Assembly: GCF_009663465.1 (NCBI RefSeq)
Contig: NZ_QXHU01000002.1
Coordinates: 62,001 to 126,000, forward strand
Origin: Riemerella anatipestifer
Lineage (GTDB): Bacteria; Bacteroidota; Bacteroidia; Flavobacteriales; Weeksellaceae
DNA: 64,000 bases
Reading direction: 5' to 3'
In this document: piece by piece, positions 21,722-45,855 of the stretch
Position numbering within the stretch: the first letter of the stretch is position 1
How the letters are laid out: each line of letters starts with the position of its first letter
The notes under the pieces: generated by a model
What the model was told of the DNA's origin: nothing
Seen by the model: only the letters and a program-made list of their open reading frames with translations
Databases searched by the model: none
Program-made: the position numbers and the translations under genes

Positions 21722-22118
21722 GGGGCTGACTGGTTTCGACAGCAAGGTCAGTAGGTAAGTAAGCATGCAGAGAACCGTAGCGCGATCTCTTTAATCCCTT
21801 GCTACAAAGTTTAACTGGCAACGAAGAGTTTGCTCTTGCTGCTTAATCCGAAGCATTAGTAGGATAAGCCTTTTCCCGAAGTATAGTAAGGAAACAAGAT
21901 GTCTCACGGAAGCTCTGTTCTGCGGCGTCCGAGTATGAGGCATAGGAAATGCAGAAATAAGCCTTTAGAAGCTTTGGCTAAAGGACGAAAATCTTAAAAG
22001 ATAAGCATAAAGTTGGCGGTCTGTTGTCTGCTTTATGACGAAAACTAAAAACAGACTAAGCATGTAGAAAGCTTGCGTATTGCTTGTTTGGACGAGGGTT
22101 CGAATCCCTCCAGCTCCA
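21722..22118 (+). ncRNA. ssrA: Transfer-messenger RNA (tmRNA)
   Basis: Rescues ribosomes stalled on broken mRNAs and tags the nascent peptides. The 5' end GGGGCTGACTGGTTTCGACA is diagnostic; GGGGCTG pairs with CAGCTCC at 22111-22117 to form the acceptor stem, and the T-arm contains GGTTCGAATCC. The tag frame at 21817-21846 reads GGC AAC GAA GAG TTT GCT CTT GCT GCT TAA, giving GNEEFALAA with the usual hydrophobic ALAA end for protease recognition. The 3' CCA is not encoded. Length is about 397 nt, one piece rather than permuted. Confidence 0.97.
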
Positions 22119-22121
22119 CAA

Positions 22122-23684: not shown

Positions 23685-24395
23685 ATGCCACATAGAAACG
23701 AAGAAGGAGGTAGTATCATAAGTCTTAAGAATGCTAAAATAGTCCAAAAAAACTTTACAGTTTTAGACGGTGTTGACCTTGAAATTAAAAAAGGTGGTTT
23801 TTGTTATCTTATAGGTAAAACGGGTTCAGGTAAAAGTTCCTTACTTAAGGTTCTTTATGGGCATCTTCCGCTAAAAGAAGGTAAGGGTACTGTGGCAGGG
23901 TTTGATTTGGCAAGTCTTAAAACATCGGATATTCCTAATCTTAGGAGAAAATTGGGGATTGTATTTCAGGATTTCCAGCTTCTTACGGATAGGAGCGTAG
24001 AGAAAAACCTTCGTTTTGTACTTCAAGCAACAGGTTGGAGCGATAAGGCAAAGATGGAGGTGAGAATAGATGAGGTATTGGCGAGTGTGGGTATGAAAAC
24101 CAAAAAGCATAAAATGCCACACGAATTATCTGGTGGAGAGCAACAGAGGGTAGCGATAGCGAGAGCTTTGCTTAATCATCCGCAGCTTATTTTGGCTGAT
24201 GAACCTACGGGGAATTTGGATCCAGAAACCTCTAACGATATTATGACTTTACTGAAGCAAGTAGCTCAAGAGAATGGGGCGGCGGTACTTATGGCAACAC
24301 ATGATTATCATATGATACAAAATTTCCCTGGAGAGGCTATTAAATGTAGTGCAGGTAAGGTTTCAGTAATGGCTACAGAGGAACTGTTTGAGTAA
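23685..24395 (+). CDS. ftsE: FtsE-like ABC transporter ATP-binding protein
   Basis: 236 residues with all ABC ATPase motifs: Walker A GKTGSGKSS (about residue 45), signature LSGGEQQRVAIARA (about 145), Walker B LILADEPTGNLDP and the switch histidine in ATHDYHM. The overall match is to FtsE, which with the membrane protein FtsX controls periplasmic peptidoglycan hydrolases during division. No ftsX is adjacent, which differs from the proteobacterial ftsEX operon but is not unusual in Bacteroidota as I recall. A LolD- or MacB-type role cannot be fully excluded. Confidence 0.82.
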   Translation: MPHRNEEGGSIISLKNAKIVQKNFTVLDGVDLEIKKGGFCYLIGKTGSGKSSLLKVLYGHLPLKEGKGTVAGFDLASLKTSDIPNLRRKLGIVFQDFQLLTDRSVEKNLRFVLQATGWSDKAKMEVRIDEVLASVGMKTKKHKMPHELSGGEQQRVAIARALLNHPQLILADEPTGNLDPETSNDIMTLLKQVAQENGAAVLMATHDYHMIQNFPGEAIKCSAGKVSVMATEELFE

Positions 24396-24414
24396 TATAT
24401 AATCATATAATCTT

Positions 24415-25122
24415 TTAGGAATTGAAAATATGAAAGTCTTTTGTGGCTTCTAAATATTGGTCCGAGTATTGTCTCGGACTTTTTTCTATAATAAAATCCT
24501 CGTCTTTTATTTCTTTTTTAGAAAAAGAAAATTCTAATATTACTCGTTTTTTGGGGTTATGTTCAATCCCTTTTATGTTAATTTTTTTTTGTGGGAAAAG
24601 TGAATGTATTTTACAGATTTGGGTAAAAGATTTTTCGTATTCAGCGGGGATGATGACGCTAAATATCCCATTTTTTGATAGAAGTTGAGTGCTTCTCTCA
24701 ATTAAACATTCAAAATCTAGAGTGAGCCTTTGTCTTGCTATTTTGTCTTTATCAGAAGGGTTGGTTTCAAAATAAGGAGGGTTAGAGAAAATAAGGTCAA
24801 ACTTTTGCTTGGGTTGATATTCTTTAAAATTGATATTGATGGCTTTAAGTCGCTTATGGTAGATAGAGTTATCAAAGTTTTCTTGTGCTAGATTGGAAGC
24901 ATTCTCATCAATGTCAATCGCTATAATAGAGCAACTGGGATTTCTTTGAGCGACCATTAGACTGATGATGCCAGTGCCACAGCCCACCTCAAGTGCAGTT
25001 TCAATATTTTCTACTGTTGTTAACGCTCCTAATAGAACGGCATCTGTACCAACTCTAAAAACGCTGGAATTTTGTTTTATAGAGAAATTCTTAAAACAAA
25101 AAGGTTTTAAATCTTTTGACAT
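24415..25122 (-). CDS. trmN: tRNA1(Val) adenine(37)-N6-methyltransferase (TrmN6/YfiC-like)
   Basis: 235 residues with a class I SAM-binding fold: VGCGTGIISLMVAQ (motif I, about residue 42), IAIDIDENA (motif II) and the adenine-N6 catalytic NPPYFETNP (motif IV, about residue 120). The N-terminal FRVGTDAVLLGAL is characteristic of the YfiC group, which methylates A37 of tRNA1(Val). It is the last gene of a minus-strand run with the histidine kinase and ribE, 5 bases after the kinase stop. Confidence 0.85.
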   Translation of the reverse strand: MSKDLKPFCFKNFSIKQNSSVFRVGTDAVLLGALTTVENIETALEVGCGTGIISLMVAQRNPSCSIIAIDIDENASNLAQENFDNSIYHKRLKAININFKEYQPKQKFDLIFSNPPYFETNPSDKDKIARQRLTLDFECLIERSTQLLSKNGIFSVIIPAEYEKSFTQICKIHSLFPQKKINIKGIEHNPKKRVILEFSFSKKEIKDEDFIIEKSPRQYSDQYLEATKDFHIFNS

Positions 25123-43816: not shown

Positions 43817-43996
43817 AAAGTCTTAGTTTTTGTTCAATTTATTGCTTTTTTTTATCGTTTAGTTTAATGTCTAAGCGGTTTGGAGTGCTTAATATTAAAA
43901 AAAATACGGCGAGGTATTGCGTATATAAATGCAAGTATGTAAATTTGGTTCACACTCAACGATAGAAATGCAATGATTTTGGCTTATTGTTATTTT

Positions 43997-44004
43997 TATA
44001 TTTG
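43997..44004 (+). promoter_or_regulatory. -7 box upstream of the 44052 gene
   Basis: TATATTTG, 47 bases before the ATG; a TTTG at 43978 is slightly closer than the usual spacing. Confidence 0.45.
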
Positions 44005-44051
44005 AGAAATAGTGTAATTCGTATATTTTTAACACCAAAAAAACAAAAGAA

Positions 44052-44555
44052 ATGGCAATTGACAATTTAATTTCAGTAGAATTTTCGGCACAAGAACTCA
44101 AAACGATAGATGATGCCATCGGAGCGATACTCGGCGTTATCCAGTCCAAGGCAATCAACCTCTCTCCAGAAGAAAGAAGGCAATATGGGCGTATAGCAGA
44201 CAAAAACAAGGTGCTGGTAGACAAATGCAAACTCTATATGGAGCAAGACCCTAGCACAGTGCCGCCTACCATAGACAAGGCAGAATTTGATAAAGACTAT
44301 CTCGCAAGAACCCAGCTAGAAGCCCCTCTGAAGAAACTAGACCGAGTGATAGAAATGATGACAGACACTAAAACACTTTTGGATTACGACAACTACACCG
44401 CTGCAGTATCTTACTACCGTTATGTAAAATTCTTAGCCACCCAAAACCAAGCAGGGACTACCAGTATTTACAAAGATCTTAGCACCCATTATCAGACCAG
44501 AGCAGCCGCCACTAGCGGTACTACCAATACCAAAGACGAAGAAAATAAAGCCTAG
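44052..44555 (+). CDS. Hypothetical protein, helical, Bacteroidota-type
   Basis: 167 residues, soluble, mostly helical, no signal peptide. Not assigned to a named family, though similar small proteins starting with an NLISVEF-like segment seem familiar from other Bacteroidota. Features: SAQELKTIDDAIGAIL (helix), NLSPEERRQYGRIADKNKVLVD near residue 55, a central acidic helix and a Thr/Ala-rich, disordered C-terminus (TRAAATSGTTNTKDE). More GC-rich codon choice than its neighbours (many C-ending codons). It is followed by the 21-bp tandem repeat, which may have been part of the same locus. Function unknown. Confidence 0.7.
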   Translation: MAIDNLISVEFSAQELKTIDDAIGAILGVIQSKAINLSPEERRQYGRIADKNKVLVDKCKLYMEQDPSTVPPTIDKAEFDKDYLARTQLEAPLKKLDRVIEMMTDTKTLLDYDNYTAAVSYYRYVKFLATQNQAGTTSIYKDLSTHYQTRAAATSGTTNTKDEENKA

Positions 44556-44566
44556 ATAATAGTATA

Positions 44567-44671
44567 ATGAAGGCTAAAGGGGCAAACGAAGACCTTACAA
44601 GGCTAAAAATAGAGTTGGGAGGCTTTAATTTAGACCTTACCACCACTAGATTTACCTCTGTAAGGTCTTAA
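44567..44671 (+). other. Short open frame running into the heptad repeat
   Basis: 34 codons from an ATG 11 bases after the previous stop. From codon 9 it is in phase with the 21-bp repeat and encodes DLTRLKI, ELGGFNL, DLTTTRF before a TAA in unit 4. The same frame is open again after this stop until a TGA overlapping the start of the next gene (44780-44782). It may be a repeat-protein gene broken by one nonsense change, or non-coding. Confidence 0.3.
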
Positions 44672-44758
44672 CTGAACCCCGTAGGCTCTATTTTAGACCC
44701 TGCAACCTCCAAAACAGACCCTATAGGGTGTAAATTAGACCTTGTGGAGATTAAAATA
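44591..44758 (+). repeat. Degenerate 21-bp tandem repeat, eight units, heptad-coding
   Basis: Eight consecutive 21-base units begin at 44591, 44612, 44633, 44654, 44675, 44696, 44717 and 44738. Most start GACCT or GACCC and end in TTA, ATA or similar. In the plus frame they encode heptads DLTRLKI, ELGGFNL, DLTTTRF, TSVRS-stop-L, NPVGSIL, DPATSKT, DPIGCKL, DLVEIKI, so the pattern is D-[LP]-x-x-x-[K]-[LI]. The exact 21-base phase over 168 bases was counted by hand. Confidence 0.75.
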
Positions 44759-44778
44759 ACATTAACTAAAATAAATTT

Positions 44779-45168
44779 ATGAGAAGATTTGTATATATGA
44801 TGGGGGTATTTACTGCCCAATTTATGTTTTATTTATTAACCATAATGGGGGTAATGCTATTAGAAGATGAAGATTTTAAAAGTGAAAATGCATACTGTAT
44901 AGCTAACATAGTGTCATTAGCTTTTGTAATTGTGTCTTATGTACTATTAGATAAGGCATTGTTAAATAGGCCTCATATATTTGAAGGACTGGATACCGTT
45001 ATATATTTTTTGATTTTATTCGTATTAACTGGAATTCAGATAGCTATGATCAAAGAATATTATGAATATGAGTATTATATGTCATTAATTATAGAAATAT
45101 TTAATTTATTATGCATATCTGGAGGTATGTTACAGATTAGGCTAACTAGTAACAATAAAGTTAAATAA
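44779..45168 (+). CDS. Hypothetical four-helix membrane protein
   Basis: 129 residues with four predicted membrane helices (about 5-27, 40-60, 73-93, 100-118) separated by short charged loops (LLEDEDFKSEN, KEYYEYEYY). No recognised family motif. The DNA is clearly more AT-rich than the genes on either side. It starts right after the 21-bp repeat. Likely an accessory inner-membrane protein; function unknown. Confidence 0.65.
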   Translation: MRRFVYMMGVFTAQFMFYLLTIMGVMLLEDEDFKSENAYCIANIVSLAFVIVSYVLLDKALLNRPHIFEGLDTVIYFLILFVLTGIQIAMIKEYYEYEYYMSLIIEIFNLLCISGGMLQIRLTSNNKVK

Positions 45169-45225
45169 TGCTTTAGATATACAAGAGTCTATGAGATTAG
45201 GGAATTGATAACAAATTACTAAGTA

Positions 45226-45780: not shown

Positions 45781-45855
45781 TTCTATCCACCCACCTACTC
45801 TACCTAAACTACCTTAAATTTTTTCAAAAAGAATATAATTTGATATGAAATTTCA

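Follow-up and report, generated by a model that had tools for sequence, protein, structure and literature searches.

Across the Bacteroidota phylum, a short gene of one protein family is followed by an array of tandem units, which repeats every two turns of DNA and is dyad-symmetric though its sequence is free. The genes beyond the array, referred to here as cargo, differ between loci with common flanking genes, and at such swap sites they are often of the restriction type. We consider it probable, on balance, that the array is a non-coding DNA element acting in cis and tied to the gene upstream of it, and that gene and array jointly mark the left border of a slot for the exchange of accessory genes. 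The pair of protein family and 21–22 bp array would then be a searchable marker by which such slots can be located throughout a major bacterial phylum, and therefore a way to seek new defence systems in their cargo. It also raises the question of what reads array DNA whose pitch and symmetry are conserved although its sequence changes freely. In the open-licence literature we found no description of the gene–array pair.

A diverged 21-bp array behind a family gene in Riemerella anatipestifer

The window, that is, the whole 64-kb stretch of DNA that was analysed, belongs to a genome of 2.3 Mb (G000, of the same genus as G002). An initial annotation had described eight contiguous, strongly diverged units of 21 bp at 44591–44758, and on both points it proved right. 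Self-identity at lag 21 was 0.478 over 44570–44776, i.e. the units are ∼48% identical, with lags 42 and 63 next best; of 2000 dinucleotide shuffles, none attained this value at lags between 3 and 89. Across the window, the highest-scoring lag-21 stretches all fell within this locus. The tandem-repeat search that had been proposed as a check gave a divided answer: the 21-bp periodicity was borne out by the shuffle test, which is our support for the array, while Tandem Repeats Finder did not report it even at score 30, because its units are no more than about half identical. The annotation placed the array correctly but left out the partner gene at 44052–44555. Elsewhere in the window, the stretch 24339–24510 has a lag-26 self-identity of 0.50, equal in strength to the array by the same measure, and a tmRNA gene with the tag GNEEFALAA lies at 21722–22121.

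The partner gene, hereafter the family gene (Table 1), has no match near cut-off in Pfam, NCBIfam or PHROGs, and remote matches of the family protein to PDB sequences, PADLOC, Pfam and NCBIfam were at noise or far below cut-offs. No relative was retrieved from a phage collection with the window DNA, from plasmids with two family proteins or from viral contigs with two proteins. Family proteins are ∼160–170 aa long and for the most part acidic, with a median pI of 5.2 and a net positive charge in 4 of 109. They are probably mostly helical, as hinted by a poor structure model from two sequences (mean pLDDT 40). Upstream of the gene lies TATATTTG, which we take to resemble the Bacteroidota-type −7 promoter consensus.

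Table 1. Features of the gene–array locus, in window coordinates
Feature	Position	Strand	Basis or remark
TATATTTG, −7 promoter-like element 5′ of the family gene	43997..44004	+	sequence; G003 homology breaks just beyond, at 44006
Family gene, 167 aa, acidic, probably mostly helical, followed by the array	44052..44555	+	profile and homolog searches
Possible extra degenerate unit	44570–44590	+	may extend the array 5′
Array, eight diverged units of 21 bp whose profile is dyad-symmetric	44591..44758	+	shuffle, periodicity and symmetry tests
Array 3′ end	44741..44779	+	G003 homology ends at 44741, inside the last unit
Cargo gene, 129 aa, membrane protein-like by sequence	44779..45168	+	absent along with the family gene in G004
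Right-flank gene, 171 aa	45226..45741	+	matched in 5 of 6 genomes of the genus, weakly (36% identity) in one

Two relatives differ from the window at this locus. In G003, homology breaks off just past TATATTTG and resumes from the same window position after ∼1.4 kb carrying two ORFs; the second homologous stretch then stops within the last unit, 17 bp before the array end, and the 3′ end of the array is therefore the left border of the differing segment. Beyond it, G003 carries a transposase-like ORF in triplicate and one further ORF before homology returns at 45816, so the cargo behind the array differs at the window locus. In G004, ∼55 bp separate the end of homology at 43950 from its return at 45225; hence, at this locus, the family gene, the array and the cargo gene come and go as one. 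The transposase-like ORF of G003 encodes 292 aa, and its three copies stand directly behind the array (L235:9032-13602).

The array is tied to the family gene across the Bacteroidota

Family homologs were found in 13 of 40 relatives, in 97 of 246 genomes of the same taxonomic family, in 37 of 295 of the class and, with a wider profile, in 26 of 296 of the phylum. The 140 loci collected represent 109 distinct family genes, of which 108 were tested after L012, at a contig end, had been dropped. The 600 bp behind each stop codon were scored for periodicity, a pass being a value above all 60 shuffles with z > 4. Periodic DNA was detected downstream of 90 of the 108 genes, with best lags of 21 (48 genes), 22 (13), 42 (13), 43 (14), 14 (1) and 24 (1); the lag was thus 21, 22, 42 or 43 in 88. 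By comparison, 10 of the 108 upstream regions used as controls passed, at lags of 12, 14, 16, 17, 21 (twice), 22, 36, 42 and 60. When 51 window genes were put to the same test, the family gene was the sole pass. The window genome carries five copies of the family gene, and each has a significant array (L001, L015, L125, L127 and L231).

Five of the 18 failures have a 22-bp array farther downstream (L043, L044, L045, L086 and L090), and another is the first of two tandem family genes in L054, the second of which bears the array. Twelve of the 108 genes have no significant array within ∼1450 bp. These twelve speak against the reading of the array as an element tied to the gene upstream, as do the four of the ten periodic upstream regions with a lag of 21, 22 or 42 (L117, L136, L129 and L048). 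A search of the phylum returned an array of lag 21, 42 or 43 at 14 of 22 loci, one of which, L232, repeats L020; at loci outside the class, i.e. in other classes of the phylum, 10 of 12 had an array. Two minor features were seen among the copies: several Riemerella copies (L002, L003, L124 and L125) have a short stem, e.g. CCTCTATCCGAAGAGG, behind the array 3′ end, and G417 has tandem or possibly fused family-gene copies with open frames of 324 and 329 aa.

Pitch and symmetry are kept while the unit sequence turns over

The pitch of the arrays is constant at 21, 21.5 or 22 bp, which corresponds to two DNA turns, and the unit sequences differ between loci. Array 6-mer similarity was at about background below ∼60% identity of the family proteins, and averaged 0.30 at 80–90%. 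Dyad symmetry was pronounced: in 57 of the 88 arrays of 21–22 bp pitch, no more than 2 of 300 column permutations were as symmetric or more so, and in 75 of the 88 no more than 15 were. The 74 arrays that remain when those of 43 bp are excluded have a common unit plan, with a GC-rich pair 4–5 bp to each side of the dyad and an AT-rich linker.

Different genes lie beyond the array

Neighbouring genes were compared at 58 long loci, three of the original 61 (L154, L158 and L189) having been dropped because a simple ORF caller found no family gene in them. The first downstream ORF of at least 90 aa was on the same strand in 49 of the 58, versus 31 of 58 for the upstream neighbour. At L160, L165 and L169 this first ORF is found 13–70 bp behind the gene, either within the array or ahead of it; if the next ORF is taken there instead, the count becomes 47 of 58.

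Twenty-eight pairs of loci had common flanking genes. In 21 of them, from seven sites, no cargo gene was shared (at ≥ 35% identity, between the array and the common right flank), although pairs within one site are non-independent and ORF calling was crude. The first ORF behind the gene was shared in 7 of 28 pairs, versus 15 of 28 for control junctions in the right flank and 12 of 28 in the left; the flank order is itself imperfect, and the contrast between cargo and flanks is therefore moderate. One pair, L156/L160, is invalid in that it shares its right side only via an ORF read from the array (c31), and leaving it out gives 21 of 27 pairs with different cargo and 6 of 27 with a shared first ORF. 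Different cargo may still be of the same kind, e.g. L150 and L193 both have McrBC-type pairs.

The end of homology was located in 16 pairs hand-picked from the 28. It fell within ∼40 bp of the array end in four (L148/L193, L190/L203, L163/L186 and L177/L181). Against the reading as a slot, homology of the gene–array block ended inside the array in three pairs, faded already within the 3′ part of the gene in eight and continued for ∼100 bp past the array in L150/L151. Right borders were inspected by eye at c18, c85, c17 and c38: a terminator-like hairpin of the next gene was present at c85 and c38, and no shared repeat or attC-like site was seen at the four. The right border of the cargo slot in L193 carries ∼12.8 copies of a 164-bp tandem repeat (L193:9561-11660), related copies of which occupy the same place in L148, L150 and L151; L193, L150 and L151 gave no Rfam match.

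Cargo often comprises restriction–modification systems

The cargo is often a complete restriction–modification or other anti-phage system. Thirty cargo proteins at swap sites were hand-picked, in most cases one or two from the start of the cargo at each locus, and 21 of them had restriction or defence-type Pfam domains by our own classing; of the other nine, six had no Pfam match and three had other domains. Site c18 holds four different restriction–modification systems in four genomes (L166, L179, L182 and L183), namely a methylase–specificity pair, and BglII, EcoO109I and EcoRV, each with a methylase. At site c1 the cargo was GmrSD, McrBC (twice, with AAA_5 partners) and PD-(D/E)XK with a FokI-type protein, and elsewhere we found AAA_21 with RloB, GmrSD-Schlafen and Schlafen. 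Among ten further hand-picked cargo genes, some of whose starts had been seen beforehand, five were of the defence type, among them an EcoRI endonuclease gene behind another array copy in the window genome (Pfam PF02963; L205:6031-6867). In the Riemerella copies, the gene behind the array is often secreted-looking or lipoprotein-like, as judged from N-termini.

Neighbours on both sides were then set against each other. Among the first 25 families listed for each side, the 115 downstream proteins, from which L176:3137-7789 had been left out, matched GmrSD_N (7) and McrBC (4), and the 115 upstream proteins matched pyruvate kinase (4), DNA polymerase I (3) and RNase III (3), as well as Methylase_S (3), ResIII (3) and N6_Mtase (2). 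PADLOC families matched numbered 198 downstream and 248 upstream, figures that count models, many per type I subunit, and not proteins. Restriction genes also among the upstream neighbours argue against a slot on one side of the gene; defence genes are prominent in the hand-picked cargo of swap sites, yet not exclusive to it.

Coding, RNA, satellite and operator explanations

The initial annotation took the window array for a decaying gene of a heptad-repeat peptide, with heptads of the form D-[LP]-x-x-x-K-[LI]. Its frame is real: from the ATG at 44567 there is one TAA, at the sixth codon of unit 4, and the frame is otherwise open to 44782. The heptad is exact in three of the eight units (1, 7 and 8), from which the remaining units deviate, and Lys occupies the sixth codon in four of the seven units other than unit 4. 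Riemerella columbina L003 likewise has a frame with similar heptads that stays open for tens of codons. However, any 21-bp period yields heptads automatically, which explains their appearance, and among the 88 arrays the lag is 22 in 13 and 43 in 14, neither a multiple of three; heptad coding is therefore impossible where the period is 22, 21.5 or 43 bp. For the 60 arrays whose period is 21 bp, stops in the best forward frame numbered 2.15 versus 2.35 after column permutation, and 25 of the 60 had a fully open frame among the six, with 19.2 expected. Unit sequences are, furthermore, unrelated across loci. The 22- and 43-bp periods together with stop counts near those of permuted arrays largely refute a heptad-repeat protein gene, and a decaying one in the window is highly improbable. 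Phase that is kept despite divergence does speak for selection, as had been argued, but not for selection on a heptad peptide; nor is decay of the locus supported, since the array is widespread and no decaying relic.

If transcribed, the array could be a folded leader or a chain of hairpins, a role that we regard as unlikely. Folding energies do lie below those of column-permuted versions (88 arrays; mean z of −3.2 for the gene strand and −2.9 for the opposite strand, with z below −2 in 67 and 57 of the 88 respectively), which counts against a purely DNA-level role, for which such folding is not needed. Nevertheless, the signal is nearly equal on both strands, the window and five loci gave no Rfam match, and terminator-like hairpins are visible by eye between gene and array at several loci. 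The arms within a unit are also less complementary than after column shuffling (6002 versus 6250, s.d. 43.5, in the 74 arrays), a deficit to which register slips inside arrays may add. This low complementarity is fitted better by interchangeable half-sites than by hairpins, and within-unit co-variation disfavours one hairpin per unit, though the arrays outfold permuted ones. The fast turnover of array sequence, together with unit numbers that vary between relatives as the annotation had suggested (e.g. L179 versus L182), would suit a satellite, selfish or neutral, whose growth by slippage may have started at the gene's terminator hairpin and which has stayed there by chance. We think this improbable, because slippage alone fixes neither pitch nor dyad, and the 21–22 bp pitch is constant across classes though the sequence is free. 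Slightly less than an even chance is given to an operator function, in which a regulator, possibly assisted by the family protein, reads the array as the regulatory region of the cargo behind it; the role of the array would then be the control of potentially toxic restriction or effector genes and not exchange. The same-strand excess of the first downstream ORF agrees with this, as do the array at c18, which runs into a promoter-like end, TTTG...TATCTTTG, common to L166, L179 and L182 and followed by different cargo, and the conserved leader that precedes different cargo at c1. On the other hand, the next gene is on the opposite strand in at least 9 of the 58 loci, including swap-site cargo (L183 and L161), and a promoter motif past the array end occurs in 6 of 88 on the forward strand and 2 on the reverse, with 2.9 expected, a weak enrichment.

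A possible mechanism of exchange

Under the favoured reading, in which gene and array border an exchange slot, a symmetric (dimeric) DNA-binding protein would bind the array in helical register. Once bound, the array would constitute a nucleoprotein block that keeps the cargo apart from the gene upstream, and this block may leave a tolerant landing site for accessory genes. Exchange itself could proceed by ordinary homologous recombination between the shared flanks after DNA uptake; R. columbina is described as naturally competent (PMC7965970). The acidity of the family protein stands against this reading in that it makes direct DNA binding doubtful, and the protein may work with a partner rather than contact DNA itself.

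More tentatively, and with considerable doubt, one may envisage a phylum-wide Bacteroidota platform. The protein and its own sequence-free, two-turn palindromic array would here act jointly as a site of landing and expression, one that actively captures incoming cassettes, restriction systems among them, and determines how they are expressed, as a counterpart of the integron that lacks a recombinase; the two might recognize each other via pitch and symmetry or via co-evolving sequence.

Relation to known systems

Plasmid iterons and helically phased operator arrays consist of units of ∼17–22 bp that are repeated every two DNA turns. The array is like them in its unit length and two-turn pitch; it differs in that it is chromosomal, lies behind a gene and has units that are diverged within the array and unrelated between loci. 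Integrons are made up of an integrase, attI, a promoter and cassettes. They resemble our loci in having a platform gene and a site with exchangeable cargo on one side, mostly in one orientation, whereas the cargo here forms no row of piled cassettes; the family protein had no recombinase match, of the integron tyrosine type (IntI), in Pfam, NCBIfam or PHROGs.

The definition of a defence hotspot rests on flanking core genes or on mobile elements; the slot described here is instead marked by the family gene and its periodic array, at many chromosomal sites across the phylum. At c18 and c1, related genomes have the same flanking genes but differ in the defence system enclosed by them, as is described for core-genome defence hotspots and defence islands of Escherichia coli (PMC10121019). 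Among Bacteroidota, the BrickBuilt minisatellite MITE of Porphyromonas gingivalis is likewise intergenic and built of head-to-tail units of similar length, 23 nt (PMC4596501). It is described as one repeating sequence in all copies, with a leader and a tail that have inverted ends, and its abstract describes no family gene (PMC4596501). The unit sequences of our arrays are unrelated between most loci and not one shared unit, and a BrickBuilt element was rejected on this ground. A CRISPR array was likewise dismissed, the units being contiguous, ∼48% identical at lag 21 and without spacers, as was a REP/BIME element with a RAYT, the family protein having no transposase match, of the HUH (Y1) type or otherwise. 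One family member, L010, had a match to the MobP3 relaxase that was far below threshold, at 18 bits versus a cut-off of 150.
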